Source: Ilex aquifolium (lineage: Eukaryota; Streptophyta; Magnoliopsida; Aquifoliales; Aquifoliaceae). From it: a stretch of 64,000 bases of DNA. The DNA lies in contig OX637392.1 of NCBI GenBank assembly GCA_951799425.1, positions 32,014,093 through 32,078,092 on the forward strand, in the 5' to 3' direction. Position 1 is the stretch's first letter, and every line of letters starts with the position of its first letter. The position numbers and the translations under genes were made by a program. This document shows positions 9,187 through 38,800 of this stretch, piece by piece. A model generated the notes under the pieces. It was not told the DNA's origin, did no database searches, and saw only the letters and a list, made by a program, of their open reading frames with translations.

Positions 9187-10551
9187 CAGGTGGAGGTGCT
9201 TGATCCTAGAGATGATGACACATTGGAGAGAGGAGAGCTAGTGGAAGAGCTCACACCAGTGATCCTGGATGAGGAGTTTTCAGAGAGGAGGGTTTACATT
9301 GGCTCCTCTCTTCCTAAGGATCTAGCTTGCTAGCTCGTGGATTTTCTCAAGCAAAATATGGACGTCTTCACATGGTCACATGAGGACCTCGAGGGCATCG
9401 ACCCTGAGGTCACCACCCACCTCCTCAATGTCGATCCTCGTTATAAGTCTGTTCGTCAAAATTTGAGGAGTGTCTCCATTGAAAGAGCGAAAACAATGGA
9501 CAATGAGGTGGGAAAACTAATAGAAAATGGGGCAGTTAGAGAAGTAGCCTATCCGGTTTGGCTATCAAATGTGGTAATGGTGGCCAAGGCTGGTGGAAAG
9601 TGGCGACTTTACGTCGACTTCACTGAGCTCAATAAGGCATGTCCTAAGGACAGCTACCTGTTGCCGCGGATTGACATCCTCATCGATGCCACTGCTGGTC
9701 ATGAGCTGCTCACCTTCCTGGATGCATATTCTGGATATAACCAGGTCAGCATGTACCCCCCAGACCAGAAGAAGATATATTTCATCACTCCAAAGGGAAC
9801 CTACTGCTACAGGGTCATGCCATTTGGACTAAAAAATGCAGGGGCAACATACCAATGACTAGTGAACAAGATATTCCAGTCACAGATTGGAAGGACAATG
9901 AAGGTGTATGTGGACGACATGCTAGTAAAGAGCCTTGTTGCAGTGGACCACCTAGACCACCTACAAGAGACCTTTGATGTTCTTAGATCGTATCACATGA
10001 AGCTGAACCCTGAGAAGTGCGCCTTTGGCGTCGGGTTAGGAAAGTTCTTGGGCTTCATGTCAACCAAAGGGGAACTGAGGCAAATCCAGATAAAATCAAA
10101 GCCATCCTAGATATGAGGTCACCCACCACAGTCAAGGAGCTCCAGCGCCTTAATAGGAGAATTACAGTCCTCAGTAGAGTTGTCTCCAAGTCTACAGACA
10201 AGTGCTTACCCTTCTTCAGAATCTTTCGGAAGGCTTTTGAGTGGGGACCTGACGTAGAGGATGCTTTCCAAAAATTAAAAGCTTATCTAGCTGCGCCCCC
10301 TCTCTTTTCCCATGGCATATCAAGAGAAATCTTATACTTATACCTCTTCGCCTCCCCATTTGTAGTGAGCTCCGTCCTCATCAGAGATAACGAAGGGGTA
10401 CAGAGGCCCGTCTACTATGTAAGTAGGGCATACCGGGGAGCAGAGATAAGTAGAACATCCACCTTAGCCATCTTGGGTGGAGGGGTACTCCAAGTGGAAT
10501 AATGGGACTCCACCACTGTTCTATCCACTGTAGAAGGGTAAAGTGTTACCC

Positions 10552-11520: not shown

Positions 11521-12029
11521 CCGCGCCCATGCTCTTGTGCCCGCTCCTATACCTGCACCTTCCCATGTGCCAACGCCTCCTGGCCAACTCCTGCACCCCG
11601 GCCAGCGCTTGTGACACCGACACCCATACCTACCTTGCCTGTGTTTGCTTCACTCACACCACTTTTGCCCTCCATCACTCTTTAGTCTAACCCTCTCAAG
11701 GAATGTAACAAAGGGAAATGAGGATGGACCTATTTATAGCCCAACCTTGGGAGTTACTGATTAACCCTAATTAATGCAAAATGTAATTAAATTAAAAGGT
11801 CAATTGTGTAATTAAATAAAGTTAAACTAGTCAAAATAAATCTAATTAGGGTTAATGTGTGAATTAAGGATAATGCATTGAATGTTGTTCTTTTCAGGTT
11901 TTTATGCGTCAAAACGACGGGAGCCAATTATCAAAGCATGGAGAGCAACTTATCAAAGCATAGGGTGTAAATTATTAAAGCTCAAAACAAAGGGAGATCA
12001 AAGTGTAAATCAAGATCATCTTGATATTT

Positions 12030-12225
12030 GTAAATAAATATCTTTTAGGATATTTGTATTTAAATATCTTTTAAGATATTTAAATATATTTTAGGATATT
12101 TGTATTTAAATATCTTTTAAGATATTTAAATATATTTTAGGATATTTGTAATTAAATATATTTTAGGATATTTGTATTTAAATATCTTTTAAGATATTTA
12201 AATATATTTTAGGATATTTGTAATT
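12030..12225. repeat. AT-rich internal repeats in the 5' LTR
   Basis: Repeated units with TTTAGGATATTTGTATT and AAATATCTTTTAAGATATTT lie just before the LTR TATA box. They hold many short palindromes and could form hairpins. The same block is present in the 3' LTR at 24401-24596. Confidence 0.85.
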
Positions 12226-12386
12226 TGGATGCCTATAAATACCCCCCTTGGGGGCTTGTAATGGGCATCCTTCTCTTGTTTCATTTTTCTTGTAAAGAAC
12301 ATTTCTTCCTAGTGGAAAACACTCCAAAGGTCTTGAATCTTTTTCTTGAATCATCTTTCAAGTATTATTGTTTTATTTATTTTCTT

Positions 12387-12602
12387 GAGTTATTGTTTTC
12401 TTTTTATTAGATCTTGGTTGTGAATTAAACACCAAGAAGTTGTTGTTTTCTTTTTATTAGATCTTGGTTGTGAATTAAACACCAAGAAGTTATTGTTTTC
12501 TTTTATGTTTTTATTATATCTTGGTTGTGGATTAAACACCAAGAAGTTGTTGTTTTCTTTTATGTATTATCATCTCTTGGTTGTGGATTAAACACCAAGT
12601 AT
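12387..12602. repeat. Four ~60-bp repeats downstream of the LTR promoter
   Basis: Units containing CTTGGTTGTG(A/G)ATTAAACACC recur four times, in what would be the transcribed R/U5 part of the LTR. The copy in the 3' LTR is at 24758-24973. Confidence 0.85.
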
Positions 12603-13518
12603 TTATTGCTTTCTTTTAATTTAAGTATTGTTTTCTTTTACTTCCATTGTTGGAGCTTCCTTCTTCCCCTTAGAGGAGTGAAACTCTTCCACTTTTCTAG
12701 AGCTTTACCAAAGCCGTGAAGGGTGGAACGTGATTCACTCATTCTTTGTCGAAGATCGGCTCCTTGTTTAGCTATTTTACTTTAAAGCATTTCACTTCTA
12801 GTGCTTGAGCATTTTACTTTGTAACACCTTTTGGGGATGAGTACCATTCATCATTCTAGCTTTACCATAGCTATGAAGGGTGAGTAGTCCTCATTCACTC
12901 TTTGGGAAGGGATGATAGATATGTAAAAGATTAATCCGGACATTATGTTTGTGTATCACCTTTATGCTTAAATGTTCTATACTCCACTTGATTTTTGGGT
13001 GATTGAATGCACCTAGCAAAGTAAAGGTACTTTGTATAATCAACGGATCTTTCTATGATAAATGGATGACTCCTACATGGAAAGATCCATTGATTCAAGG
13101 CAAGTACCCTAACTAACTCTTCATGACAAACTTTCAATGTCCACCATTATTGCACTTCATTCCTATCTTCCGATTAATTTGCCGTTGACACGGGAGTTAA
13201 TTGAGTTATAAAGCACAAACATAATGCACCGGACAATCAACTACATATTCTGATTCCCGAACCAAAGAGTGTTTGTTACATTTAATCATCTTATATTTTG
13301 TCTAGCAAAATACCCATTGGAAAGAATCTTACATTCTATCCAAAACTTCCCACAACTTCAAAATCATAATATTTCCAATTACAAGTCTTTCTCACTATTT
13401 ACTTCAAAGAACACCAACCATAGTTCCCTGAGGATTCGACTCTGGACTCAAACCAGATTATTACTACAACTTGACCGCCTGCACTTGGGTGTACACATTT
13501 CGGATCAAGTCAAGTTTT

Positions 13519-13536
13519 TGGCGCCGTTGCCGGGGA
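13519..13536 (+). promoter_or_regulatory. Primer binding site (tRNA-Asp)
   Basis: TGGCGCCGTTGCCGGGGA lies six bases after the 5' LTR. It is complementary to the 3' end of plant tRNA-Asp, including the CCA, as is usual for Athila elements. Confidence 0.93.
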
Positions 13537-13627: not shown

Positions 13628-15590
13628 ATGACTGACACCAATCGCCTCTTTCAAAATTTGCCTGCTGAATCTTCTGGGTCTGTAAATCAACTTGAACCAC
13701 CTTCACCCAAATCAGAAGCCGATTCTTGTAACTTCAATATGGCAAATATTGACAGGCAGGGTGAAGGTCATGTGAGAGAGGGGGAAGTACCCAACATTCG
13801 AACATTGCGAGATTACTTACATCCCACAAGGAATAGTGTCCCCTCTTGTTTTATTTTTCCTGAAAATGCTCCCCTCTTTACTGTAAAGCCGGGGACAGTG
13901 CAGTTATTGCCCGTGTTTCATGGATTGGATGCAGAAAATCCGTATCTGCATATCAAAGACTTCGAAGAAGTGTGTGGAACATTTCAAGACAATTCTGAAT
14001 TGACAAAAATGAAATTGTTTTCTTTCTCTTTGAGGGATAAAGCCAAACAATGGCTGCATTCTTTAAAATCTCTTTCAATCCCTAATTGGCAGGCTCTACA
14101 GAATGAATTTTTCAGAAAATTCTTTCCTCTGCACCGCACTAATACACTCAAAAGACAAATCATGAATTTTTCGGTCAAAGAAGGGGAAACTTTTTATCAA
14201 AGCTGGGAGAGATTCAAAGATCTTCTCCAATCTTGTCCACACCATGCTTTTGAAAATTGGACTTTGGCAGGTTTTTTCTATGATTCCTTGCCCACTAGGT
14301 TACGACAGTTTGTCGAAATGATGGCTCAAGGAGAGTTCATGGGAAAAAGTCCGGAGGAGGCATTCAATTTTTTTGATACCATATCTGACAGTTCTCAAAT
14401 GTGGGACTCAGCCTCTCCTACCACTGTAGAAGCCAAACCACCTACTTTCCAAGGGGGTAAGTATGTCTTGAGAGAAGATGATGATCTTAGAGCAAAAATG
14501 TCCACTTTGTCTCGAAAGCTTGAAGCTTTAGAGATGAAAAAGATCCATCAAGTTGATGTTGTCCCTCCCACAGAACAAGTATGTGGGATTTGTGCGCTAA
14601 CAGGGCATCCTACTGGGGAATGCCCGACCATTCCGGCATTCAAAGAAGTTTTGTTGGAACAAACAAATGCCATTTCCAATTTCAACAAGCCTTACTCCAA
14701 CCCATACTCTGAAACATACAATCCAGGGTGGCGGAACCACCCAAATTTCAGTTGGAGAAACACACAACCAACCCCCATGAATCAGCAACAAAGTCCACAA
14801 CAACCACCTCAAGGACCTCCACAATATCCTCATCAACAAAGTCCACCACATCCACCTCAAGTACCTCCACAATATCCTCCATATCAACCACCACACAAAA
14901 GGAACCTTGAAGATACATTGAATCAATTCATGCAAACCCAAATGAGCTATAACAATAGTTCTACTCAGGCTTTTATTGATTTCAAGGCCCAGACCACACA
15001 ATCTTTTGAGGATCTCAAAGGCCACATTCAAAAGCTGACCCAGTCCATGAGCACACATGAGAAGGGAAAATTTTCTGCCCAACCAAAGCCTCCACAAGGC
15101 CAATTTCAGGTGGGAAATCCATCAACTATGGAAACTCCACAAGACCAAGCCAAAACTGTCACCACATTGAGAAGTGGCAAAAAGATTGACAAGTCCATCA
15201 GAAACATGCTGATTCCAGACCCAAAACCAGTCTCAATTCCAGCCAACCCATTAAGTGAGCCAGAACTTGAAAAAAAAAATGACTGTGATCCCATGATTGA
15301 ACAAGAACCAGAGCCATCAAGGGAAGAAGAACCCTCGTGTTCTATTCCTGCTCATTTCCCTCATAGACTCAAGAGCATACAGAAAGCAAACAATCAGTCT
15401 GAAATTTACGAGCTTTTCAAGCAAGTAAAAATCAACATCCCACTTCTGGATGCAATCCAACAGGTTCCAGCTTATGCCAAGTTTCTAAAAGACTTGTGCA
15501 CAGTCAAAAGAAGCCAAAATGTTCAAAAAAGAGCCTTCCTCACAGAGCAAGCCAGTGCCCTACTTCAACACAAAATCCCTTCAAAGTGCG
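13628..15590 (+). mobile_element. Athila gag region
   Basis: The frame opens with an ATG about 90 bp after the primer site. The capsid-like part (about 13900-14430) has the retrotransposon gag signature around KQWLHSL, FFRKFFP and FYQSWERFKDLLQ. A CCHC zinc knuckle (C-x2-C-x4-H-x4-C, around CGICALTGHPTGEC) lies at about 14580-14625 and is followed by a region very rich in Pro and Gln (about 14770-14910). Gag would bind RNA and form the particle. Gag runs on into protease in one frame, typical of a gag-pol polyprotein. Confidence 0.9.
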
Positions 15591-15990
15591 AAGATCCAGG
15601 GTGTCCCACTGTGTCATGTGTCATTGGAAATTTCAAAATTGAGCAAGCATTGTTAGACCTTGGAGCTAGTGTCAACTTGCTTCCTTTCTCTGTCTACCAG
15701 CAGTTGGGTTTAGGTGAACTGAAACCCACTTGCACCACACTCCAATTGGCAGATAGATCTGTAAAAATTCCTAGGGGTATTGTTGAAGATTTACTTGTCC
15801 AAGTGGATAATTTTGTCTTCCCTGTAGACTTCATTGTTCTAGATACTCATCCAGAAGTTCATTCAGAAACTCCAATTCCTGTCATTCTTGGTCGACCTTT
15901 TCTAGCAACCTCCAATGCACTAATCAATTGCAGGAATGGTATTATGAAATTGACTTTTGGGGATATGACTCTCGAAATGAACGTCTTTGA
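15590..15990 (+). mobile_element. Athila aspartic protease domain
   Basis: The aspartic-protease core ALLDLGASVNLLP is followed about 230 bp later by PVILGRPFLA, the expected second half of a retropepsin fold. Athila proteases often have DLG rather than DTG/DSG at the active site. The domain would cleave the polyprotein. Confidence 0.88.
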
Positions 15991-16499
15991 CATTGCAAAA
16001 CACCCAAGAGAGTACGAGGAGGTAGGAGAAATAAATTCCATTGAGTCATTGATACAAACACATCTGAATGACTCATTCTGTGAGGATCTTAGTGAATCAA
16101 CTTTGTCAAAATCTGACTCATCTGACTCTCTGGAACAAAACTCCATTGAGTGTCCTACCTTCAATGTGGGGACATGGGCTCCTAAATTTGAAGAAATTTC
16201 ATCAAGTGGTACAAAACCACTATCTTCAAGTGACAGGCCACCAAAGCCTGAACTGAAACCGCTCCCATCTGATCTCAAGTATGCATTTTTAGGTGAGGAT
16301 AAATCTTACCCAGTGGTAATTTCTTCAAAAATCACAGACTTGCAAGAAGCTCAATTAATTGAAGTTCTTAAAAGTCACAAAAGCACCATTGGGTGGACCA
16401 TCGCTGATTTGAAAGGTATAAGCCCGTTAATTTGTAATCATGCCATATACTTGAAGATGACTCAAAACCCTCTCGTCAAATGCAGCGACGATTGAATCC

Positions 16500-17790
16500 T
16501 CACATGAAAGAGGTTGTGAGACTGGAAGTGCTCAAACTCCTGGATGCAGGGATATTTTTTCCTATCTCCGATAGCAAATGGGTTAGTCCAACCCAAGTTG
16601 TACCAAAGAAATCTGGAGTCACAGTAGTCAAAAATGATGCAAATGAACTCGTGCCAACACGAGTCGTCACATGATGGCGAATGTGCATTGACTATCGAAA
16701 ACTCAATCTGGTGACTAGAAAAGACCATTTTCCTCTTCCCTTCCTTGACCAAGTCCTCGAGAGAATAGCAGGCCATGAATTTTACTGTTTCCTGGATGGG
16801 TATTCCGGATACAATCAAATTGAGATAGCTCTGAATGACCAAGAAAAGACCACATTCACATGTCCATTTGGCACCTTTGCATTCAAAAGGATGCCATTCG
16901 GACTTTGTAACGCTCCTGCAACATTTCAAAGATGTATGCTGAGCTTGTTCAGTGACATGGTCGAAAAATTTTTGGAAATCTTCATGGATGATTTCTCGGT
17001 ATATGGTGACTCATTTGATTTGTGTCTAGCTAACCTAGAAAAAGTTTTGATGAGATGCAAAGAGGCAAATCTGGTGCTTAACTGGGAGAAATGTCATTTC
17101 ATGGTGAATCAAGGCATTGTCTTGGGTCACATTGTGTCGTCTGAAGGCATGAAAGTTGATAAAGCAAAAATTGATTTGATAAGGAATCTTCCTGCTCCTA
17201 GGGTTGTAAAGGATGTTCGATCATTCTTAGGTCATGCAGGATTCTACAGAAGGTTCATAAAAGACTTCAGCACCATAGCAAAACCTATGTGTCATCTTTT
17301 GAGTCAGGATGTCATTTTCGACTGGAATGAAGCGTGCCAAAAATCCTTTGACAAACTCAAAGGCATGTTAATTTCTGCCCCAATAATGCAACCTCCTGAC
17401 TGGACTCTACCCTTTGAATTGATGTGTGATGCTAGTGACTATGCTGTAGGTGCTGTTTTGGGACAAAGAAAAGATAAGAAGCCACATGTGATTTACTATG
17501 CAAGTAAAACTTTAAATGATGCCCAAATGAATTACTCAACAACTGAAAAGGAATTACTTGCTGTAGTATTTGCATTGGAAAAATTTCGATCTTATCTTGT
17601 TGGTTCTTCTGTTACTGTATTTACTGACCATGCAGCACTGAAATTTTTGCTTACAAAAAAAGATGCCAAACCAAGGCTCTTGAGATGGATCCTCTTGCTC
17701 CAAGAATTTGACTTAGTCATTAAGGACAAAAAGGGTGTGGAAAATGTGGTGGCAGATCATCTGTCGAGATTAACTTATGAATTTCATGAG
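16500..17790 (+). mobile_element. Athila reverse transcriptase and RNase H region
   Basis: Reverse transcriptase motifs appear in order: [34 protein letters not shown] and the catalytic FMDDFSVYG, followed by the connection segment ([15 protein letters not shown]). RNase H follows with [29 protein letters not shown] and TDHAAL. The part belongs to the broken gag-pol of this copy. Confidence 0.9.
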
Positions 17791-18029
17791 GATGGACTGC
17801 CAATTAATGAAAAATTCCCTGATGAACAACTATTCAGGATTGATGAGACCCCATGGTACGCTGATATTGCTAATTTCCTTGCTACCGGAACACTTCCTCC
17901 ATTTTTCACTCCCATGGACAAAAAGAAGTTTCTGAGGGAGGTCCGCAATTTCTTTTGGGAAGATCCCTACGTATTCAAGTACTGTAAGGATCAGATCATA
18001 AGACGTTGCATCCCCGCTCAGGAAAGTAG

Positions 18030-19108
18030 ACAGGTAATAACATTTTGTCATTCAAAAGCATGCGGTGGTCATTTTTCATCTCGAAAAACCGCTGCAAAAA
18101 TCTTGCAGTGTGGATTTTACTGGCCCACACTTTTCCAAGATGTCCATGCTTTTTGCGTAACTTGCGATAGATGTCAAAGGTTGGGAAACATTTCAAAAAG
18201 AAACATGATGCCCTTAAACCCAATTTTGGTGATCGAAATTTTTGACTGTTGGGGTATCGATTTTATGGGACCATTTCCCCCCTCCTTTGGCTATCTATAC
18301 ATTTTAGTAGCTGTAGACTATGTATCCAAATGGGTTGAAGCAATTCCATGCCGAAATAATGATCATCAAACAGTGATCAAGTTTTTAAAAGAAAATATTT
18401 TATCTCGGTTTGGAATTCCAAAATCCATTATAAGTGATGGGGGTTCTCATTTTTGCAATCGTCCCTTCTGGAATTTAATGAAAAAATACTTGATTTTTCA
18501 CAAAATTGCAACCCCTTATCATCCACAGACCAGTGGACAAGCTGAGTTAGCTAATCGGGAGATCAAATTAATTTTGGAAAAAACGGTGAACCCAGATCGC
18601 AAAGATTGGTCATTAAGACTAACTGATGCGCTCTAGGCATACCGAACTGCTTTTAAAACAATTTTGGGCATGTCTCCCTATCGATTAGTCTATGGAAAGC
18701 CATGTCACTTGCCTGTGGAATTGGAACATAGGGCATACTGGGCTATTAAAGCAATGAATTTTGACTTAGACAAGGCTGGACTGTCACGGAAGCTTCAGAT
18801 TAATGAATTGGAGGAATTGAGAAATGAAGCATATGAAAATGCTAAGATTGCAAAAACCAGGATGAAAATTTTTCATGACAAGAACATAGTGCGAAAATCT
18901 TTTGAACCTGATCAAAAGGTTCTACTTTTCAATTCGAGACTTCGCCTATTTCCTGGTAAGTTGAAATCAAGATGGACTGGACCATACATTGTTAAAAAGG
19001 TATTTGAACATGGGGCAGTGGAAGTGGAGAACCCATCAAACGGTAACATTTTTACCGTCAATGGTCAGCGATTAAAACCCTTTGTGGAGAATTTTGTCCA
19101 AAATGTGG
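18030..19108 (+). mobile_element. Athila integrase region
   Basis: An HHCC zinc-binding N-terminus (H, H, then CVTCDRCQR) precedes the catalytic core with [18 protein letters not shown] and [12 protein letters not shown], followed by the family-typical [18 protein letters not shown] and a C-terminal domain ending around VNGQRLKPF. It would insert the cDNA into the genome. No chromodomain is seen, as expected for Athila. Confidence 0.9.
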
Positions 19109-19211
19109 AGACCATTTTTTTTATGGATCCAGAAAGTATCTCCGGAAATCACTTCGGAGATTACGCTTGCCGACACAAAAAAGGGTCGGGTCAATCAGAC
19201 ACCCGACACGA

Positions 19212-19330
19212 TGGACTGCCTTTATAAGGCTCCCATCATTTTTTTTTTTTCCTTTTTCTTTTCCCCACCGCCTTTACTCTTTTCTTTTCTTTTTCTTCTT
19301 CTTTTTCTTCTCTTTTCTTCTTCTTCTCCA
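19212..19330 (+). repeat. Pyrimidine-rich leader of accessory module 1
   Basis: A GCCTTTATAAGGC-like block is followed by about 100 bp of C/T-rich sequence. The same arrangement recurs at about 20996-21130 before module 2, which marks the left edge of the tandem duplication. A TATA-like or splice-related role is possible; neither is shown. Confidence 0.55.
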
Positions 19331-19374
19331 CTGCATCTGGTCTTCTGTACCACGATCCAACCCATAACAGTACC

Positions 19375-19521
19375 ATGTCTGCATTTTTCGATGACCCTAT
19401 CCTCCTTCTCATGATCTACATTTGTTTGTATTATTTACTTATGGCTGTTCTTCTTCGGGCCGCACTGATGATCAAGGGTTTTTGTCCCAATGAAAACCCA
19501 GACCACCCCAAAGATGCTTAA
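19375..19521 (+). CDS. Small single-span membrane protein, module 1 (48 aa)
   Basis: A 48-residue frame opens with MSAFFDDP, runs through one hydrophobic segment (ILLLMIYICLYYLLMAVLL, about residues 9-27), then a basic residue-containing stretch and a polar tail with NPDHP. The module 2 counterpart at 21161 keeps Met, DDP, the membrane segment, a following basic residue and NPD-x-P, although the DNA has diverged considerably; that pattern suggests selection on the protein. It lies 3' of integrase, where Athila elements may carry env-like genes. Function unknown. A small membrane or movement-type protein is only a guess. Confidence 0.6.
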   Translation: MSAFFDDPILLLMIYICLYYLLMAVLLRAALMIKGFCPNENPDHPKDA

Positions 19522-19868
19522 TCTCTGTTTTTTTTGGTATAGGTCATCGGCGATTGAACAGATCTCCACAGTTAACTGCGTATTCAAGCTCTACAAACCG
19601 AAAAACTCGAAACATTGGGGACAATGTTCAGTCTAGGTTGGGGGGTGAGATCTACAGTTTACAGTAGTTGATCTGCAGTTTACAGTAGTTGATCTGCGCA
19701 GGTTGAACCCGTAAAAATTTTCTGTAAATTTTTTTGTTTTTGTTTTTATTGTTGTATCTGTTCAGATTATGTACCTTGTATTAATGATAATATATGTGGG
19801 TCAGTTTTGATCGTCTTTGTGACTGGAAGACGTAAAAGAACCAGATAGTGGGTTATAAAGTAGCAATC
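19522..19868 (+). other. Spacer between the two genes of module 1
   Basis: It contains TTTTTTTTGGTATAG followed by GTCATCGG, which looks like a 3' splice site and is conserved in position in module 2 (TTTTGTTTGTAG, near 21312). It also holds a polypurine-tract-like block at 19614-19647 and two copies of a TTTACAGTAGTTGATCTG(C) unit near 19656-19696. Confidence 0.5.
19614..19647 (+). promoter_or_regulatory. Polypurine-tract-like block 1
   Basis: ATTGGGGACAATG, then GGTTGGGGGGTG. The second part repeats the true polypurine tract before the 3' LTR (24117-24128). It could serve as a central priming site or be a relic of a former LTR edge. Confidence 0.5.
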
Positions 19869-20279
19869 ATGGATGTAAATTTTTTTTGGTTTAGTCTAGG
19901 AGTCCTACGTACTTTTCCATCTGATGTACATACCATGATCATGAGAAAAACAAGATTAGTAAGGAAGGCTGAAATCAAAGAAAAACAAGCGAAACCCCTC
20001 TGTGGTCGAAGCAGTTATTCTAAACGTCGTCGTGCTACACGACTTGGTGCCTGTAAACAGTGTGGCAGATACTTTCATGAGAAAAGATACAACAAATGTT
20101 CTGAACCAATTTCCGGTCGCGCAACCGATCGATTAAACTGGATAGTGAATGGGCTGAGTAAGGATTACCCTGATACGCCATGCTATTCCGGTACTGTGCT
20201 TAACCGATTTGTGAGAGAGGAAGTTGGGAGAGTTACTGGTTGTCCATTTTACACAGATACGGAGGGGGAATCGGATTGA
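19869..20279 (+). CDS. NABP-like cysteine-rich basic protein, module 1 (136 aa)
   Basis: Starting from the first ATG in the frame, the protein reads MDVNFFWFSLGVLR, then FPSDVHTMIMRK, a basic segment, PLCGRSSYSKRRR, GACKQCGRYF and NKCSEP, and ends in an acidic tail (EGESD). The order P-x-D-V-x4-I-x-R-K, GRSxY-x2-RRR-A, C-x2-C, C matches the cysteine-rich nucleic-acid-binding proteins of carlaviruses and allexiviruses (PF05515 type) as I recall them; those act as silencing suppressors or zinc-finger regulators. The finger here would be C-x2-C-x4-H-x6-C. About two thirds identical to module 2. Its frame is uninterrupted. Confidence 0.65.
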   Translation: MDVNFFWFSLGVLRTFPSDVHTMIMRKTRLVRKAEIKEKQAKPLCGRSSYSKRRRATRLGACKQCGRYFHEKRYNKCSEPISGRATDRLNWIVNGLSKDYPDTPCYSGTVLNRFVREEVGRVTGCPFYTDTEGESD

Positions 20280-20995
20280 CCTCTGTGGAAAAGTGTACTG
20301 AGGTTGGGAATGAGAGCTGAAGGTCCGAGTCTGTAAATTTTATTTTATTTTATTTTATTTTTTTTATGTTCTGTACAAACTCTTTTGACTAAAATGAAAA
20401 CATGGATTCCTTTTAGTATGCATAATGTAGTGTAAAAAAAAAAAAAAAAAATTTTTTTGATTCGACGTTCGAACGTTACAACACGTTTGAATGTTTTTGC
20501 TAAAATCCTTCTACAATAGTGTACAGTTGTTTTTATTTAATGTTATTTTTAATGCATGTCACTTTCTTTTGTTGTATAGTTTTGTTGTTCCTATTTTCAG
20601 ATATCGGTGCCAGGTCAAAACTCAAGGGCAAGGTGTTCTCTTACCCTACTCATTTTTTTATTGTGCGTCATTAATTATCATATCTTTTTGTTACATTGAG
20701 GACAATGCATGAACCAAGTTAGGGGGTGAGGTTGCATTATTTGTGGGAATATTCTGCGTGGATATCCACTCTGCCGACACTGCGCACCATTAAAAAAAAA
20801 AAAAAAAAAAATTTCAAGCCTGCACCATTATTGCGCCTGCTGCCATGATTTGCGCCTGCCGACACTGCCGAAAGTAAAAAGGGGGGGGGCCTCCCATTCT
20901 TTTTCTTCTTCTTTTTCTTTTTAAATGCCAACTCCTGCCGACATTTTTTTAAAAAATAAAAAAATAAAAAAATAAAAAATAAAAAAAGTCTGAGG
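20280..20995 (+). other. 3' flank of module 1 and junction to module 2
   Basis: AT-rich with several homopolymer runs and an (AAAAAT)n stretch at about 20947-20985. The first 130 bp resemble the 3' flank of module 2 (22284-22400: TGTGGAAAA and TTTTGTACAAA-like landmarks). No further gene recognised. Confidence 0.5.
20695..20728 (+). promoter_or_regulatory. Polypurine-tract-like block 2
   Basis: ATTGAGGACAATG followed by AGTTAGGGGGTGAGG. It is related to the block at 19614 and to the true tract at 24117. Confidence 0.5.
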
Positions 20996-21160
20996 AATGC
21001 CTTTATTAGGCCTTCCACCTTTTTCTTTTTCTTCCACCATCACCGGTGTTGGTTCCCCCCTTTTCTCTTTCCCTTCTCTTCTTCTCTTTCTTTTTCTTCT
21101 CTTCTTCTTCGTCGTCGTTCTTTCTGTTCTCTGTAAAAACAACTTACCCCCTGTAAATCC

Positions 21161-21292
21161 ATGACCATATACGCCGACGATCCAGTCTTTTGTTTAATAA
21201 TTTGTCTTATATGTTTGTATTTGTACCTGGGTGCTCTTTGTGTTCTCACACTTAGGATGAGGAGTTTCCAGAGAAACCCAGATATTCCTTGA
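21161..21292 (+). CDS. Small single-span membrane protein, module 2 (43 aa)
   Basis: A 43-residue frame: MTIYADDP, a hydrophobic segment (VFCLIICLICLYLYLGAL, about residues 9-26), then TLRMRSFQRNPDIP. It aligns along its whole length with the module 1 protein (DDP, LY, the basic patch, NPD-x-P). Its frame is uninterrupted. The arrangement of an acidic DDP before and basic residues after the span is shared by both copies. No homologue recognised. Confidence 0.6.
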   Translation: MTIYADDPVFCLIICLICLYLYLGALCVLTLRMRSFQRNPDIP

Positions 21293-21857
21293 GTTGAGTA
21301 ATTGTTGTATTTTGTTTGTAGGTTTCGGCAGATGAACAGATCTGTACCTTACAACCTCATTTCCAAGCGTCATACACTTTCACTACTGCAACCTTATCTC
21401 CACTAGCCCACTAGTGCTAGTGTTGTAAGTATTGCTTGTTTGTAATTTCATTTATATATATATTTGAAATTTGATATCTACAGCTTGTGATTCTCATGGC
21501 TATTTGTCTTTATAAAATTCCTTGTGAATTTGCTATGCCCTCCAATGACTATGCTGTAATTGCTGTTAGAGTAAGATCTGATAATTTGCCAAATAATTCT
21601 CCTCAATCCTATGTATTCTGGGTTTATTCCTTCTTCGTTAATTTGTTTGTTTCATCCTAAATCTTCTTCCTTCCGCTTGTATTTTGGTATATTTTCTCTA
21701 GTTTCGTATTTGTAATTTTAGTTTTAGATTTGAAAAAAAAAAAAATTTATTTTTTCTGGATCGCGTTTTTTTAAGTATTTGTACCTGTATTTCATGATCA
21801 CATCGGATGCAGCTTCAACTGTCTTTGTGACTGGCAGACGTTAAAAAACCAGATAGA
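21293..21857 (+). other. Spacer between the two genes of module 2
   Basis: It keeps the splice-acceptor-like TTTTGTTTGTAG near 21312 and the GATGAACAGATCT block (19553 in module 1: GATTGAACAGATCT). It ends with a block at 21821-21856 that is nearly identical to 19813-19848. Confidence 0.5.
21821..21856 (+). promoter_or_regulatory. Conserved block before the NABP-like gene
   Basis: GTCTTTGTGACTGG-x-AGACGT, then AACCAGATAG, lies 2-23 bp before the candidate start codons. The same block precedes the module 1 gene at 19813-19848 with few changes, while the flanking non-coding DNA differs a great deal. This suggests a functional leader, splice or translation signal; which one is not known. Confidence 0.5.
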
Positions 21858-22283
21858 ATGTCTTTAGTCTTAGCAAGCATGGATCCTAAACTTTTTTGGT
21901 TTAGTCTAGGAGTTCTACGCATTTTCCCATCTGATGTGCATGCTGTGATAATGAGAAAAGCAAGGGATGTGAGAAAAATTGAGATCCGAGAGAAACAACA
22001 ACAACCATTGTGTGGCAGAAGCAATTTTGCTAAACATCGTCGTTCCAAACGACTGGGTGCTTGTTACCATTGTGGCAGGATATTTCATATGAAAAAACAT
22101 AATCAGTGTTCTGAACCAATTTCGGGTCGTGCAACCGATCGATTAAACTGGATAGTGTATGGGCTGAGTAAGGATTATCCTGACACGCCATCTTATGCCA
22201 GTCCAGGACTTACAAGTTATGTGCGACAAGAAGTTGGAAGGTTCACTGATAATGACATAGATCCAAGCGATGACTCGGATTAG
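21858..22283 (+). CDS. NABP-like cysteine-rich basic protein, module 2 (141 aa)
   Basis: The first ATG gives 141 residues; the ATG at 21879 (MDPKLFWFSLG) is the one that matches module 1 and would give 134. Key blocks: FPSDVHAVIMRK, PLCGRSNFAKHRR, GACYHCGRIFHMK, NQCSEPISGRATDRLNWIV and GLSKDYPDTP, then an acidic tail (DPSDDSD). The finger is C-x2-C-x4-H-x6-C. The frame is uninterrupted, and the conserved residues are the same as in copy 1. As for copy 1, it resembles carla/allexivirus nucleic-acid-binding proteins; the SGRATDRLNW part is not known to me from them. Confidence 0.65.
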   Translation: MSLVLASMDPKLFWFSLGVLRIFPSDVHAVIMRKARDVRKIEIREKQQQPLCGRSNFAKHRRSKRLGACYHCGRIFHMKKHNQCSEPISGRATDRLNWIVYGLSKDYPDTPSYASPGLTSYVRQEVGRFTDNDIDPSDDSD

Positions 22284-22394
22284 ATTTTGACTATAAAAAC
22301 AAAGCTGTGGAAAAATGTGTTTTGGAATGAAGGTTAAGGGTCTGAACTCTTTTGTAAAATAGTTTTGTACAAAGTCTTGTTGTTGAAATAAAAA

Positions 22395-22660
22395 TGTGGG
22401 CCGAGTAAGGAACGTCCCGAACTACCAACTAACAGTGTAGGTAGGGATTTGATCCTGAGACGCCATAAATTTCCAAGTTCAATTTGTGCATTTTATCTTC
22501 TTTCAATTTTCATAGATAAATGAGTATGTGGGCTGAGTAAGGAATGTCCTAAAATGCCAACCTGTAGTGTGGGTAGGGATTTTATCCTGAGACGCCATAG
22601 TTTTTCAAGTTTAATTGGTGCATCTAGTCTTCTTTCAATTTTCATAGATAAATGAGTATG
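22395..22660 (+). repeat. 131-bp tandem repeat, two units
   Basis: Two units begin ATGTGGGC(C/T)GAGTAAGGAA at 22395 and 22526 and share GAGACGCCATA and TTTCATAGATAAATGAGTAT. Their first 30 bp resemble the GLSKDYPDTP codons of the NABP-like gene just upstream (22157-22190), so they look like decayed partial copies of its 3' end. Confidence 0.7.
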
Positions 22661-24116: not shown

Positions 24117-24128
24117 GGTTGGGGGGTG
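24117..24128 (+). promoter_or_regulatory. Polypurine tract
   Basis: GGTTGGGGGGTG directly before the 3' LTR start; the expected primer for plus-strand DNA synthesis. Confidence 0.85.
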
Positions 24129-25883
24129 TGATTAACCCTAATTAATGCAAAATGTAATTAAATTAAAAGGTCAATTGTGTAATTAAATAAAGTTAAACTA
24201 GTCAAAATAAATCTAATTAGGGTTAATGTGTGAATTAAGGATAATGCATTGAATGTTGTTCTTTTCAGGTTTTTATGCGTCAAAACGACGGGAGCCAATT
24301 ATCAAAGCATGGAGAGCAACTTATCAAAGCATAGGGTGTAAATTATTAAAGCTCAAAACAAAGGGAGATCAAAGTGTAAATCAAGATCATCTTGATATTT
24401 GTAAATAAATATCTTTTAGGATATTTGTATTTAAATATCTTTTAAGATATTTAAATATATTTTAGGATATTTGTATTTAAATATCTTTTAAGATATTTAA
24501 ATATATTTTAGGATATTTGTAATTAAATATATTTTAGGATATTTGTATTTAAATATCTTTTAAGATATTTAAATATATTTTAGGATATTTGTAATTTGGA
24601 TGCCTATAAATACCCCCCTTGGGGGCTTGTAATGGGCATCCTTCTCTTGTTTCATTTTTCTTGTAAAGAACATTTCTTCCTAGTGGAAAACACTCCAAAG
24701 GTCTTGAATCTTTTTCTTGAATCATCTTTCAAGTATTATTGTTTTATTTATTTTCTTGAGTTATTGTTTTCTTTTTATTAGATCTTGGTTGTGAATTAAA
24801 CACCAAGAAGTTGTTGTTTTCTTTTTATTAGATCTTGGTTGTGAATTAAACACCAAGAAGTTATTGTTTTCTTTTATGTTTTTATTATATCTTGGTTGTG
24901 GATTAAACACCAAGAAGTTGTTGTTTTCTTTTATGTATTATCATCTCTTGGTTGTGGATTAAACACCAAGTATTTATTGCTTTCTTTTAATTTAAGTATT
25001 GTTTTCTTTTACTTCCATTGTTGGAGCTTCCTTCTTCCCCTTAGAGGAGTGAAACTCTTCCACTTTTCTAGAGCTTTACCAAAGCCGTGAAGGGTGGAAC
25101 GTGATTCACTCATTCTTTGTCGAAGATCGGCTCCTTGTTTAGCTATTTTACTTTAAAGCATTTCACTTCTAGTGCTTGAGCATTTTACTTTGTAACACCT
25201 TTTGGGGATGAGTACCATTCATCATTCTAGCTTTACCATAGCTATGAAGGGTGAGTAGTCCTCATTCACTCTTTGGGAAGGGATGATAGATATGTAAAAG
25301 ATTAATCCGGACATTATGTTTGTGTATCACCTTTATGCTTAAATGTTCTATACTCCACTTGATTTTTGGGTGATTGAATGCACCTAGCAAAGTAAAGGTA
25401 CTTTGTATAATCAACGGATCTTTCTATGATAAATGGATGACTCCTACATGGAAAGATCCATTGATTCAAGGCAAGTACCCTAACTAACTCTTCATGACAA
25501 ACTTTCAATGTCCACCATTATTGCACTTCATTCCTATCTTCCGATTAATTTGCCGTTGACACGGGAGTTAATTGAGTTATAAAGCACAAACATAATGCAC
25601 CGGACAATCAACTACATATTCTGATTCCCGAACCAAAGAGTGTTTGTTACATTTAATCATCTTATATTTTGTCTAGCAAAATATCCATTGGAAAGAATCT
25701 TACATTCTATCCAAAACTTCCCACAACTTCAAAATCATAATATTTCCAATTACAAGTCTTTCTCACTATTTACTTCAAAGAACACCAACCATAGTTCCCT
25801 GAGGATTCGACTCTGGACTCAAACCAGATTATTACTACAACTTGACCGCCTGCACTTGGGTGTACACATTTCGGATCAAGTAA
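24129..25883 (+). repeat. 3' LTR of the young Athila element
   Basis: 1755 bp, begins TGATTAACCC, same length as the 5' LTR. It is followed by GTTAC, the target duplication. TATAAATA lies at 24605. Confidence 0.95.
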
Positions 25884-26806
25884 GTTACCTGGTAAGATTG
25901 ACATTCAAGTATACTAATTGGAGTAGGATTGACATTGAGGAGCTCTCATTCACTTTGACAATTATCTAATTAGATTGGCATTCAAGTATCCTAATTGGAG
26001 TAGGAGTGACACTAATGAACTCTCATTCACTTTGGCAGTTACCTAGTTGGATTGGCATTCAATTATCCTAGTTAGAGTAGGATTGACCTTGAGAAGTTCC
26101 CATGAGGATAAACCATACCAAAAAGGAAAAAATAAGCCTAAAAAAAAAGTCCTTGTCAAGGAAAAGAGTTTAGCCGCAGTTGGACCAGTTAATGCCCTCT
26201 CCCCCAAATCATTGGGCTCGAGGCATGGGGGGCAAATGATGGGCCCAGCCCCAAGGCCTAACTCAGATAGTGGGCCCGCACTAGTGGGTCTGGCCCAGAA
26301 GAGACCCAGATCTATTCAGACTCACCAAAGCCTCGAGAGCCATAATATCCTAAAGTCAAGGAGTCAACAACGCCATCAGAGAGCCTCATCCACACCATCC
26401 TAGAGTGAGGAGGTCTGTCACGCCATCCTGGGACCAGGTCTTGAGGAGATCTCCACGCCCTCTTTGCAACTGCCTCATCTGTTGCGAGGATGGCACCCAC
26501 TCCACCAAATCAGCCTTTCTGTTACTAATAAGACGCCTCAATCTGTTAAGAAGCACCAATAAATTATAAGCCCCGCCTACACATGGGGGGCATCTCTCAC
26601 ATCTTGTATCTCACATATCATTCACACTTGAGCACCCAACACTCCTTAAAGCAATAAAACACTCAGGCCATGCTAACCCTTCATAGTGGAGTAGGTCACC
26701 TTGACCGAACCACTTAAATTAACTTTTGCTTGTGTTGTTTCTCTTTATTCATTTATTGCATTTATTACTTGACAGGTGGTACATAAAATTAATTTGTGGA
26801 TCATCA
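25884..26806 (+). mobile_element. 3' end of the Tat-lineage element with 3' LTR (fossil)
   Basis: This continues the Tat fossil beyond the Athila insertion. The purine tract ATGGGGGGCAAA at 26225-26236 is followed by an LTR start TGATGGGCCCAG at 26237, typical of Tat elements. The LTR seems to run to about 26806 (GGATCATCA). A TATA-like AATTATAAG lies near 26575. The left LTR is not in the window. Confidence 0.7.
25895..26110 (+). repeat. Three ~77-bp tandem repeats
   Basis: Units beginning GATTG(A/G)CATTCAA at 25895, 25973 and 26050 contain GGAGTAGG(A) and CTCTCATTCACTTTG. They lie between the Athila insertion and the Tat polypurine tract. The Athila target GTTAC also recurs within the units. 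Confidence 0.8.
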
Positions 26807-32844: not shown

Positions 32845-35800
32845 GTGATTCCCTAATTATAATTTTTTAGCTACCATGTATGATTAACAGTGTTTGTAAT
32901 CATTACATCTGTCTTCAGATTTAAGAAGTTGCTTGTGTCAGACTGTTTAGCATGGTCACTCTCATTCTGTTACAATTTTGGGCATTTCTTAGTGCATGTC
33001 ATTTCATGATGATATGAGATAAAAATTGGAGATGACTCATTGTTTATTGCCTGTTTACCAGTTTCAAGGTGGCTGTTGCAATGCCGAATCTTGAAGAGCT
33101 GCTGAAAGATACACCAACCCATATTTTTGCTTCTGTGTGGTTTGAATGGAAGAAAACAAAATTTTATCCTACTCACTACAGTGAACTAGTTCGACTTGCT
33201 GCTCTCTACAAGTAAGAATTCTACTCCTTGTTACATATCTTTATGCCTACAGCATATAATAATAGTGCTTTCATCTCAGACTGTTAAACATTTCACAGTC
33301 TGGGTTACTTAAACTCCATTGTTAATAGATATTGAAAGATTGAAGGAAAATGCATTATACCCAGGAAAGAAGCACATCAATATTCAATTAGCACGCGTCT
33401 AAAATGGAATGATGAAAGATGCACAGAGAAAAAGATACTGCACAAGTCATGGAATATGGGAGTTAAATTAAACTTTTGGCAGATAAGTACAAATATAAAA
33501 TATATATTAATTGACTACGTGTATATAAATTTATAATTATATAGTATTTTAGATAATAGAAAATTGAGCACAAATGTAAGATAAATAGTAACTGACTTAT
33601 TGTTTATAAATGTTCTATGATATATAATGTTGTATAGTAGTGAAAACGATCTAAATAAGAGTTTCAAAATGAATTGCGACCCAAAAAACCGTACCAACTA
33701 AGTCCACCCCTATCGTACTGTGTACCTAAGAAAGTGTTATACCCGTACTACGTATTAAAGCGACCCACTATCGAAGTAACATTGGGTTAGACCAATAAAA
33801 CCAATTACATGCCTAATATTGTCAAAAAATAAAAAGTGCAGAAAATTTGTCATCCTCACTAATGTCAAGTTTACCAGATAATCTAGTAGCATTCTCAACC
33901 CCCTCACTTATGTCCTTCTAAACGATGACTTAGTAGATTATTGAAGTTGTAAAGATGGTATTAGAATTTGTAAGGAAGAGAAGAATAAGAGAGGTAAGAA
34001 AAAGAGAGAGAAAGAATAATCTATATGTAGGCTATGTTTTCCTACACCCTCTTATTTATATTGAACAATATCTTGGGTAATTACAATATTACCCTACATA
34101 AATCTAACTAAATAAAAATAAGAACTCTAACATTTCCCTTCAAGTTGGAGCAGAAGGATAAAAAATGTATAGGTTGGAACAAAGATTATTGAAGGTAGCA
34201 CGAGACAATAGTTTGGTAAAAATATCATTCAGTTGATCATTAGACTTGATATATGGACTTGATATATGGAGTGATAATCTTCTTTCCCATTAGGAGATCC
34301 CGAATGAAATGACAATCCACTTCGATATGTTTGTTGCGCTCATGAAATACTGAATTACTGGTAAAGAAAATAGATGTTTGATTATCAAAATGCATCTGCA
34401 TAGGAGAAGACATACTAATCCCCATATCACGAAGTAAAAAACTCACCCACAACATTTCACACGGTTGTCTGAGCTATAGCTCGATACTTTGCTTTTGTAT
34501 TAAAACGTGCAATTACATTTTGTTTCTTGCTACGCCAAGTAACAAGATTACTACCAACAAATATGCAATACCCATAAGTCTAGGGAGCACAGATACTTTT
34601 TGGAAGGGTGCCGTGGTAGTGTTGGACATGTGTCTGATGTGGACATGCGTCAGATACGGTTAGAAGTGTCCAGAATAGTGAGCTTAGTTGAACACGGCTA
34701 AGATACGACCAGGACATGCATAGGATACGACCATGATACGGCAAAGATACAATCAATAATTTTTTTTTTCTAAAAAATGACTGGTAACTATTAAAAGGAG
34801 TGTGATTTTTATTTTTTTACTATATTTTTTATTATATTTTTTATTATGTAACTTATATATTATGAATGTTAATGGATGTAATGATGTTTGATGAAAATGG
34901 TGGATATTTATTTTAATCTATTTTAATATTAATCAAAAGTTAATATTTGTCAGGTCTTATTATTAATATTAATATTATATAATATATGCTTTATTTTTAA
35001 TATATTATAATTATGTTATTATCTGAAAAATATATTATGTTATTTTAATAGCTGCATCATTGCCGTAATCATGTCTTATAATTTTGAACTTTGTCGTATC
35101 CCCATGTCCGTGTCCGTGCTTCCTATCTATAAGTAGATTGTCTTTCAATATAACTACTTGCCTAGTCAGCATCAGAAAAGTCAGTAATAGTCATACATGA
35201 TGAAGACCGGTATAATAATTCTTTTTTAGGTGTTCTTTTAAGATACTGAAGAATACAATAGGCAGCCTCCCAATGAGGCTTATGATGAGCATGCTAAGAA
35301 GCACGGACACAGATACGATAGGGCACGGACACACGGACATGTCATTTTCCTAAAAAGTAGGACACATATACGTTGAATAAAATATAATTTTATATATTTT
35401 TGTATGACCAGAAGTTTACACATTTGGCTCAACTTACATTTTAGATACCATAAGTTAAAAGTTTGAACCAAATATATAGAGCTAAAATATGGGAAATACA
35501 AGCCCAACAACCCAAATTTGACCTCAATTCAATATAATGTGAATTGGGCCCATTAATTTAAGATTCCAAAAAAGAGTCTGAAGCCTCTTAGGGAGGCCCG
35601 CCCAGTTCAGATAAGTTGGACAAGTGTAATGTGATCTGAGATCTCACATGTCAAAAGGCATATCTCATGCCAAAAGCTCTCTCTTTCTCTCTCTCCTTCC
35701 TGTTCCTCTATGACTTCTTGCCTTTCTTTTCTCATCTCTCCTCCTTCCAAAATCTTCAATTTACAATGGAACAACTGTTGTTTCACTTCGTGTTTTCCTC

Positions 35801-38800
35801 CCAGAAAAGGAATCTCCTGGGCAGCTTTTTAACAGAGGGGTAATAGCCTCTATTTATCATCTTCGTCTTCCTTACGATGTAGTTTTTTCCTACTGTTGGT
35901 TTATTCTCCTGACAACGAACCAATGGGTCATGGCCGTTGTTTAGCATCTTCGTCTCCTTCATGCGATTCAGTTCTTTATTTTGTTTCATCTACCAATGAC
36001 AAATAACTGTGAGTATTTTCAATGGATTTCAAACTACAAACTTTTTTCAAAACGTGTCCCGACGTGTACGAAATTAAAAAATAAAAAATAAAAAAATTGG
36101 ACACTTTTCTGCTTGTTCGATACGTGTCCGTGTCCCAGATGTGTCGGACACGGATATGTTAGCCATTTTAACTTGTCGGCGCTTCATAGTGAGCACGTAT
36201 AAATTGACTAATCACACCAACTCCAAATGTAATATAAGGACGCGTAACTATGAGATAGATCATTTTACCAACTAACCTTCGATAGTACCCTATGTCATTA
36301 AAAACTTCTCTAGTCTCGGCATCTAACTTGATTGTAGAATCCACGGGTGTGTCAATAGGACGACCACCCAAAGTACCAGTTTTAGATAATAAATTTAATA
36401 CGTATTTTCATTGGCATAAATTAATACATTCCTTTGACCAAGCAACCTCAATCTCAAGAAAGTATCGAAGAAAACTCAGATCTTTAGTGTGAAACTACTT
36501 CCCCAAATGGAGCTTAAAATTGACAATACCATCAGAATCATCACCACTAATGATAATGAATGATATGAAGTAGAGCGTTGAAAACCATACTGAAGGACCA
36601 CATCACTGTTCGTGGCGATTGTTTCAAACCATATAATGCTTTCTTCAGATGACATACTAATTGTTCCTTATCAGAAGCGATATAACCTGGAGGCTGAATC
36701 ATGTGTATCTCCTCCAACAAATCTCTATGTAAAAAAACATTCTTTATGCCCAGCAGGTATAAGGGCCAATAACAACAGGCTGCAACCGAAATACGAAATA
36801 AGAATTCTAATAGAGTTAAGTCGAGCAACAAAAAAAAAAAAGATCTTATAGTAATCGATACCATATGTCTGAGTGTATCCTTTGGTAATCAACTGAGCCT
36901 TTAAATGTTCGATAGAGCTATTAGAAAGATATTTCACAAATAAGCTGCTTCCTAAGAGAGAGTGAAGTGAGATCCAAAGTCTGATTCTCATGAAGAGCTT
37001 TCATTTCCTCATCCATAGCTAGTTTCCATCTAGGAGATGCCAAAGCCGGTGTCAAAGAACTAGGAATAACAACAGATTACAAGTTAGATGCAAAACAACG
37101 AATTGATGAGGAAAATCAATGGTAAGGAAATAAAATTAGAATGGGATGCTTGGGCACTGTTACGAATACCTTTCCTCATGCTGGTCCGAAGAAGAGGGAA
37201 TAACAGAAGGCTCAGAAGGAAGGACCTTAATTGAATCAGGTGATGACTGTGGAACAGGAGTATATGGTACAACCTGTATGTTCTTGGTGTGTTGATAAAC
37301 CTACAATGGGGGGTTAGTAGGTGAAGAAGAAGTTGTACAAGTTGGTATAATAGGTAATAACAGCTCCTCTTGACTAGAAGAAACCAAATCTGGGAAAAAA
37401 ATATGTTTTGAGGTAGGAAAGAATGGAGAGGACTCAAAGAAGGTAATATCGTTATTAACTCTTGGGTCATAGCATCGATAACCTTTCTGAGTACAAGAAT
37501 ATTCCAAAAAGACACTTAATCCAGCAGAGAGAAAGTTTATCCCTACCTGAACCAAGTAGCTGAACAAATGCAACATAACCAAAAGCACAAGGAGTCTGAC
37601 CAATGGGATGTAGTAGGATAAAGTAATGAGAAGGGAGATTTGTTACCTAAAACAGAGAAAGGCATTTGATTAATAAGATAAACAGAAATAAGAACAACAT
37701 TTGCCCAATAGTGCTTACGAATATGCATATTAAACATTAAAGCATGAGCTACATTTAAGATATAATGATGTTTTTATTTAGTAGTACCATTTTGTTGGTA
37801 TGTGTGAGCGCAAGAAATTTGATGAATGATACTATGGTCAGCACAAAAGGAATGCATAAATAATTGAACATACTCAAGATTGTCAGAACGAATCTAAGAA
37901 CTAAAGAGTAAATAGAGGACAGATGGAAACAACAAACAAGGTGGTGGAGAAGAGATCTTATAGCTCACCTTTGTTGCAGAGACGAAGAGGAGAGAGAGAA
38001 AACTTGAACTCTAGAGTGGTTTGTTGGTCTAAGAGCTTGCTTTTCCCTCTCGCTATACAGTCAGTTTCTATCTGATCGCCTAATAAGCAAAATGGAAGAG
38101 AAATGAGTGGCTGGGGGCAAAAGCGTGATGTAGGACAGTAGTATAAAATCAAAATCTGTATTGTTTAGGGGCTGTGAATAGTACCCATGAATAGTAATAG
38201 AGCTGTGAACGGTGACTTGAATAGTAATATTGGCTAGGAATCACTTATTTAGTTTGAGTCAATTTGCTAGTATTAATATTTTATATGCTCTTTTAATAGT
38301 TTTTAGACTCACGAGTTTTTTTTTGTAATTTCTAGAATTTTGGAATGGGTCATAGTCCAACCCGTGGGTCGTATTTTGGGTAAAATTCTAGTGTTGAATA
38401 TTCTAGAATTCAGAATTCTAGTTCTAGTTTATTTTAGTCTTTCTAATTTTTAGTAATATATAATTTTTTATAGTCCTAGAGACTTTAGAATTCTAATCTT
38501 TTAGGATTAGGAGTACTCGAATTTGCGTTTCCTTGAGCATCTTATGGATTGCATCAAAGGGTTTAAACATCTTCAATTGGGAAATGGGCCACACAAAGAA
38601 GCCCTTGGATAAGCCCAATTTATCATTTTTTCCTTGGTGCTGATAGAAGTTGTTCTGGCCCAATAAACTAATGGAAAAACCGCTCAATAAGCTCGAGTCC
38701 AAATAGACCAGACTTCTTTTCTTTTGAATCCAACAAAAGCTAAAGTTTTTACCCCCCAAACAGGCCCATAATGACTGAAAAACATGGTTCAAAGTCGCGA

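Follow-up and report, generated by a model that had tools for sequence, protein, structure and literature searches.

Homologues of flexivirus nucleic-acid-binding proteins in an Athila-type retrotransposon of Ilex aquifolium

How would a long terminal repeat (LTR) retrotransposon of a plant come to carry genes that resemble those of RNA viruses, and what could such genes do for the element? The question is raised by a stretch of 64,000 nucleotides from Ilex aquifolium (GenBank assembly GCA_951799425.1, contig OX637392.1, positions 32,014,093 to 32,078,092 of the forward strand; hereafter, the window), in which an LTR retrotransposon harbors two small genes, A and B, both intact, in the sense orientation and located between pol and the 3' LTR. 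An earlier, sequence-only reading had singled out these two frames by their shared motif blocks, which we confirm, and had assigned them to the nucleic-acid-binding protein (NABP) or cysteine-rich protein (CRP) family of plant RNA viruses.

19869..20279, + strand: NABP-like gene A, 136 amino acids (aa), with an arginine-rich motif and a CX2CX4HX6C finger
21858..22283, + strand: NABP-like gene B, 141 aa, the conserved part of which begins at the second methionine, 21879

The proteins encoded by A and B are 67% identical, and the DNA segments 19813-20181 and 21821-22191 match at 80% (E=4.7e-72). Judging from these sequences, A and B are almost certainly homologous to the NABP/CRP proteins of flexiviruses. 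With the Pfam model PF05515 (Viral_NABP; curated cut-off 23 bits), A scored 39.6 bits (E=7.2e-10) and B 48.4 bits (E=1.5e-12); with PF01623 (Carla_C4; cut-off 20.9 bits), the scores were 26.1 bits (E=8.5e-6) for A and 24.2 bits (E=3.3e-5) for B. For scale, the Grapevine virus A (GVA) protein scored 30.4 bits with PF05515 and fell below the Carla_C4 cut-off. In the Pfam scan, the NABP models scored best for A and B. Neither protein had a zf-CCHC match among those listed, and the other zinc-finger matches listed, zf-C2HC_2 and zf-ChsH2, were weaker and below their cut-offs. The arginine-and-finger core alone reached 21.5 bits (B) and 15.4 bits (A) with PF05515, so that the flanks carry more than half of the score; for the flanks of A and B scanned on their own, no Pfam match was listed. 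In passing both the PF05515 and the Carla_C4 cut-offs, A and B resemble the NABP-CRP kind of pruneviruses, trichoviruses, carlaviruses and allexiviruses, which is encoded by genes of RNA viruses, whereas the genes described here are duplicated and lie in an LTR element. Because of this location, A and B are homologues of viral genes rather than viral genes themselves. Pfam labels are already attached to the database relatives of A and B, two of which bear the source name 'Viral nucleic acid binding'; hence, the NABP similarity itself is visible to automated annotation.

Searches in both directions connect the same proteins. Twelve element-type proteins, comprising A, B and ten relatives from the database, were aligned with no virus included; this alignment retrieved the RNA-binding protein of GVA (E=2.8e-7) and, weakly, a Carrot vitivirus 1 protein (E=0.019) among 29 matches listed. 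A second alignment that included these two viral proteins added Allamanda chlorotic virus B, Mint virus 2 and Tomato vitivirus 1 (45 listed). Profiles were then compared for 30 of the 48 proteins, namely, 6 of the vitivirus type (five virus-named and one unnamed), 16 of the element type and 8 of a second group of NABP-like proteins, about 129 aa long (see below), with shuffled controls (9000 made; 8324 and 8273 scored). The vitivirus-type profile recognized all 16 element-type proteins at 25.9-48.3 bits (best shuffle 10.7), and the element-type profile recognized all 6 vitivirus-type proteins at 29.9-51.7 bits (best shuffle 10.9). Across all cross-group comparisons, the lowest score was 18.6 bits (P0019 with the vitivirus-type profile), compared to 11.9 bits for the best shuffle. 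The above-threshold PF05515 scores, the retrieval of GVA by a virus-free alignment and the reciprocal profiles thus bear out the proposed NABP/CRP membership; neither of the outcomes that would have spoken against it in the earlier reading, a lack of significant profile matches or a clearly better match to a different zinc-finger family, was observed. Scans of viral contigs with the element-type and two-vitivirus alignments found no relative, and neither did a scan of bacterial and archaeal contigs. A sequence search of the PDB with B gave weak matches, mostly to ribosomal L37 and L43 proteins (best E=0.08).

The closest resemblance to a known viral protein is that to GVA p10 (vitivirus ORF5), which is 36% identical to the element-type query across 68% of the latter and shares the arginine-rich motif, the CCHC finger, D-R-L-x-(F/W)-(V/I)-x-x-G, (D/E)TPxY and an acidic tail; the layout of arginine-rich motif and zinc finger in p10 is described in passages of PMC9104223. 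In A and B, the motif (KRRR and KHRR, respectively) directly precedes the finger, which consists of three cysteines and one histidine. The CX2CX4HX6C form is found in 14 of the 16 element-type proteins, whereas all six vitivirus-type proteins have CX1CX3-4HX4C. The vitivirus-type proteins that were found further differ from A and B in the lack of the N-terminal approximately 40 residues and in being encoded by RNA viruses. When everything through the last finger cysteine was removed, the element-type profile still scored GVA at 18.7 bits and Allamanda chlorotic virus B at 11.1 bits (0 of 500 shuffles each), and in the reverse direction, the vitivirus-type profile scored the 16 element-type proteins at 5.7-10.7 bits, values reached by 0-1 of 500 shuffles. 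These post-finger scores indicate that the similarity beyond the finger is mainly toward the GVA side. According to the portion of PMC9104223 that compares vitiviruses, this segment of GVA is a conserved domain of unknown function that the other vitiviruses compared do not conserve.

A Foldseek search of viral models with the low-confidence model of B, a method that also uses sequence, listed 35 matches, 22 of which are named NABP, RNA-binding or silencing suppressor; the remainder are the 15-kDa protein of Cherry mottle leaf virus, a Gymnadenia betaflexivirus match, six without a name and five other proteins. The top-ranked match, the only one with E<0.001, was a prunevirus silencing suppressor (E=8.5e-5), and the TM-scores were low. 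This NABP-CRP of Glyptostrobus pensilis prunevirus aligns with B over 129 columns, including the N-terminal part, at 32% identity. The link to carlaviruses and allexiviruses that had been proposed at the outset needs amending: the protein searches reached the five named viruses given above, and carlaviruses and allexiviruses came up in this weak structure-plus-sequence search, at the head of which stood a prunevirus and Cherry mottle leaf virus.

The genes reside in an element that is, on sequence criteria, a recently inserted, high-copy LTR retrotransposon of the Athila type. Its features are as follows:

11753..11757: left target-site duplication, GTTAC, the same five bases as at 25884-25888
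11758..13513, + strand: 5' LTR, with homology to the 3' LTR extending to 13516
13519..13535, + strand: primer binding site, TGGCGCCGTTGCCGGGG, five bases past the LTR
13628..16495, + strand: gag and protease frame (Pfam: Retrotrans_gag, 60.2 bits; Asp_protease_2, 25.5 bits)
16681..18636, + strand: reverse transcriptase, RNase H and integrase frame, discontinuous with both neighboring frames in this copy
18664..19227, + strand: end of the pol region, labeled by position, with no Pfam match above the cut-off
24117..24128, + strand: polypurine tract, GGTTGGGGGGTG
24129..25883, + strand: 3' LTR
25884..25888: right target-site duplication, GTTAC, equal to 11753..11757

The following hallmarks of Ty3/gypsy elements are present: LTRs, target-site duplication, primer binding site, polypurine tract, gag, protease and the reverse transcriptase-RNase H-integrase order. 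The primer binding site TGGCGCCGTTGCCGGGG is presumably of the tRNA-Asp type. A tRNA-Asp primer and a 5-bp spacing after the LTR are reported for Calypso and Diaspora in passages of PMC1142308. The Pfam scan of gag-pol, which covered the frames on either side of 16496-16680 and 18637-18663, listed neither a second RNase H nor a chromodomain; under the rule given in part of PMC6317226, whereby the second RNase H marks Tat elements and the chromodomain marks chromoviruses, this points to Athila rather than to either of those groups. The Athila ORF-1 domain PF03078 was not listed for the scanned frames, and the same source gives it for only 16% of Athila elements. As far as the consulted descriptions go, Athila, Calypso and Diaspora share with the window element the gag-pol order, in which neither a second RNase H nor a chromodomain was seen, and the primer binding site five bases past the LTR; Athila and Calypso also share additional coding sequence downstream of pol and ahead of the 3' LTR, which in their case holds an env-like gene. 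In contrast, the window element carries a pair of NABP genes and a pair of micro-ORFs in this region, and the only other post-pol frames of at least 90 aa are one of 110 aa over a pyrimidine tract (19082-19414) and one of 93 aa in antisense (20737-21018). The Athila setting named in the sequence-only reading is thus supported by Pfam content, primer-site spacing and these two sources, and the recent activity that it proposed agrees with the LTR identity of 99.886% (one mismatch and one gap in 1759 alignment columns) and with near-identical genomic copies. The polyprotein frame is interrupted in the window copy. Polypurine-tract-like sequences also occur inside the element, at 19640 and 20722, besides that at 24117, and both LTRs contain short tandem repeats (12388-12618 / 24759-24989 and 12023-12226 / 24394-24597).

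The DNA upstream of A and that upstream of B are collinear, each with a pyrimidine tract, a micro-ORF, a T-rich TAG|GT site and the common TGAACAGATCT:

19375..19521, + strand: micro-ORF uA, 48 aa, with a single strongly hydrophobic stretch (Kyte-Doolittle 2.75 over 19 residues)
19528..19545, + strand: acceptor-like site A, a T-rich tract and TAG|GT, cut after 19542
21161..21292, + strand: micro-ORF uB, 43 aa, hydrophobic (Kyte-Doolittle 2.79 over 19 residues)
21310..21324, + strand: acceptor-like site B, a T-rich tract and TAG|GT

The uA and uB proteins align with a score of 64, compared to 33 for the best of 2000 shuffles, and their similarity was reached by 2 of 2000 column-shuffled DNA alignments. 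A third micro-ORF, at 3770-3898 of L033, a copy from another subfamily, has diverged, with 47-49% identity to uA and uB, which are themselves 35% identical; all three encode 43-48 aa with DDP followed by a hydrophobic stretch and lie ahead of NABP genes. The ratios of nonsynonymous to synonymous divergence (dN/dS) for the micro-ORFs, 0.29, 0.46 and 0.84, are noisy, so that constraint is suggested rather than shown, and no Pfam relative was found above the cut-off. L033 lacks the stretch corresponding to 17856-19542 (around 2163-2165 of L033), the ends of which, ATG|GTACGC and TATAG|GTC, conform to a GT-AG intron that would end at acceptor-like site A, with three ambiguous bases. This deletion fits reverse transcription of a spliced RNA; it fits a short-homology deletion as well, given those three bases and the single occurrence of the junction in the genome (none in the reversed-pattern control). 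The splice reading is tentative, and a donor inside pol would not alone bring the NABP start near the 5' end of the RNA. After gene B, at 22386-22649, there is a tandem pair of a 132-bp unit; the repeats and the 3' part of the NABP gene share a 26-column match that none of 500 shuffles equaled.

A scan of the genome (800 Mb, 103 contigs) with gene B gave 4090 first-look candidates, the best 150 of which, including that of the window itself, were scored. All 150 were 98-100% identical to the query and stop-free over positions 1-141 (1-140 in one case). Among 14 places fetched from these 150, 12 contain the end of pol, a micro-ORF, A, a micro-ORF and B in this order; in one of the 12, L011, the pol end and the second micro-ORF are partial, and an additional fragment of A is present in inverted orientation. 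Under strict pattern matching, 11 of the 14 places retain an intact A and 12 an intact B; pattern matching also shows an open micro-ORF A in 12 places and an open micro-ORF B in 13, and the exact acceptor motif is present in 10 (A) and 12 (B).

Pairwise comparisons show signs of purifying selection on the NABP genes: for A, B and the two genes of L033, dN/dS was 0.27-0.39 in five of the six pairs (for example, 0.22/0.76 for A and B, and 0.135/0.475 for the two A genes). The B gene of the window (21858-22283) is near-identical to that of L033 (4241-4642), yet the A genes of these two copies share 78% identity, a contrast suggestive of exchange between subfamilies. The phylogenetic tree comprised 29 rows, that is, A, B and 27 of the 46 database proteins, after fragments and near-copies were dropped; it is unrooted, with long branches, and its viral side consists of six vitivirus-type rows. 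These six rows are separated from all others (100/98), the A group of seven rows is supported at 100/99, and the B-like rows form no single clade (one clade in 6% of the bootstrap trees). Given this grouping, the A/B duplication predates the present subfamilies.

The database proteins P0009, of the A type, and P0015, of the B type but broken, each derive from a contig of 2941 bases, perhaps one and the same. The second NABP-like group (P0016-P0018, P0021, P0030-P0034 and P0041; about 129 aa) includes many truncated or altered variants, which hints at a further repeated family elsewhere. A genome search with P0016 found only the element's own kind of gene (best 150 of 3399 candidates, 44-47% identity, one with a stop), so that no closer member of this group was seen among those 150.

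The explanation that we favor, with a probability of roughly 55%, is that the element carries a virus-derived NABP cassette that is expressed by splicing and blunts silencing. Between pol and the 3' LTR, a duplicated accessory module combines a membrane micro-ORF, an acceptor-like site and a small basic zinc-finger gene. The passage of the NABP gene between an RNA virus and an ancestral Athila element would predate the present burst by a long time, with transfer from virus to element being somewhat the likelier direction. The gene would be expressed from a spliced subgenomic RNA; the arginine-rich stretch would take the protein into the nucleus, where RNA would be bound, and the protein could blunt host silencing of the element in the manner of the related viral proteins, the two paralogues possibly dividing the labor. 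That A and B encode an accessory protein useful to the element is very probable. Silencing suppression as the main role, argued by analogy, is more tentative, a little short of an even chance: GVA p10 binds RNA and suppresses silencing (passages of PMC9104223), as do, with respect to suppression, CRPs of carlaviruses, mandariviruses and some allexiviruses (parts of PMC12172455 and PMC10335701), and silencing suppression together with worsened disease is described for sweet potato chlorotic fleck virus and for mandariviruses, among which one CRP suppressed silencing (PMC12172455, in part). Because the activities of the viral relatives are mixed, the best-supported role would be that of an RNA-binding, probably nuclear accessory protein. 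It is rather less likely than not that an entire lineage of Athila elements became virus-like by retaining an RNA-virus suppressor cassette, made up of a membrane micro-ORF and an NABP gene and duplicated into two diverged but conserved paralogues, at the position of the env-like gene of other Athilas, and that the success of this lineage in plants depends on the cassette.

Several observations weigh against the favored explanation. The Carrot vitivirus 1 protein lies below both Pfam cut-offs (13.3 bits with PF05515), and the post-finger segments of the other four of the six vitivirus-type proteins scored only 0.4-3.8 bits with the element-type profile, values reached by 1-34 of 500 shuffles. 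The AlphaFold2 models of B (pLDDT 60, 32 rows) and A (pLDDT 56, 22 rows) have the same helix order, with a confidence too low for finger geometry, and a fold search of the PDB with B gave no match. The two B genes differ with dN 0.023 and dS 0.012, a ratio of about 1.9 based on too few changes to show selection, and the intactness of gene B is a selected property because the 150 copies scored were the best of 4090 candidates. The tree, unrooted and with long branches and six vitivirus-type rows, gives no direction of transfer. Viral suppressors are usually tested on post-transcriptional silencing, whereas LTR elements are mostly under transcriptional silencing. Finally, among the relatives themselves, the garlic virus D CRP showed no silencing suppression (PMC10335701, in part), and p12 of chrysanthemum virus B (CVB) is a transcription factor and a weak suppressor (PMC12172455, in part).

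The main rival, and a serious one, although we consider it unlikely, is that the NABP relatives act on the element's own RNA, as a Rev-like export factor or a nucleocapsid-like packaging factor, with any effect on silencing being incidental. Both A and B possess the finger and an arginine-rich stretch that would bind unspliced genomic RNA; the acceptor-like sites suggest spliced RNAs and, with them, a need to export the unspliced form; and there is a precedent in Cer1 of C. elegans, which encodes a protein needed for nuclear export of its genomic RNA (PMC10309623). The relatives of known function described in the sources above are, however, silencing suppressors, virulence factors and transcription regulators.

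Equally improbable in our judgment is the reverse transfer, whereby flexiviruses acquired the CRP from a plant retroelement, or both acquired it from a lost plant gene. The element-type and 129-aa-group proteins form a deep set opposite the six vitivirus-type rows, and with such a two-sided split of an unrooted tree, either side could be the donor. However, the family extends across several virus genera in two families (Foldseek names; PMC12172455, in part), which requires an old viral presence, and no plant host gene of the NABP kind was named in three protein searches, most matches of which are unnamed; one match is labeled ribosomal protein L37AE/L43A by the source. That A and B are useless passengers preserved by the youth of the family alone is very unlikely: the genomic copies are very similar (best 150 of 4090) and silent changes are not in excess between the B genes of two subfamilies, but A and B are paralogues that have diverged, A clusters with relatives of its own, and five of the six pairs have the dN/dS of 0.27-0.39 given above. 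Convergence, with A and B resembling NABPs only as basic CCHC knuckles of the general Gag kind, has next to no probability and is rejected as far as sequence can tell, for even though CX2CX4HX6C is near the retroviral knuckle, arginine runs are common and the core of B scores nearly as high with zf-C2HC_2 (19.7 bits, under its cut-off of 27) as with PF05515, the profile scores, the absence of zf-CCHC from the matches listed, the contribution of the flanks and the post-finger match to GVA all argue otherwise.

What appears to be new is the placement of NABP genes in a live retroelement family, together with paralogues and micro-ORFs. To our knowledge, there is little documentation in plants of genes passing between positive-strand RNA viruses and LTR retrotransposons. 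Among the matches listed from open-access literature of 5.39 million papers, judged by titles and abstract starts and with subscription papers mostly outside, none reported an NABP/CRP-type gene in a retrotransposon. Extra ORFs have been described in Athila and other elements, and passages of PMC11728184 report an additional ORF of a sunflower Tekay element, which likewise encodes an extra protein proposed to modulate RNA silencing; it differs in being a 5' additional ORF (aORF) and in resembling DRBM (double-stranded RNA-binding) proteins, and these passages name no virus homologue. A betaflexivirus replicase-like sequence is reported in cucumber (PMC3136472, in part). A conserved small protein of a suppressor-containing family, in an element with 4090 first-look candidates, makes the question of how active retrotransposons of plants evade silencing testable by standard leaf assays.

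Outside the element, frames at 9337-10502 resemble, by eye and with no search made, a reverse transcriptase and an RNase H that would belong to a different, broken element. The flanking DNA also contains a diverged inverted duplication in pieces (33979-37887 / 46027-48336), with 70-76% identity.

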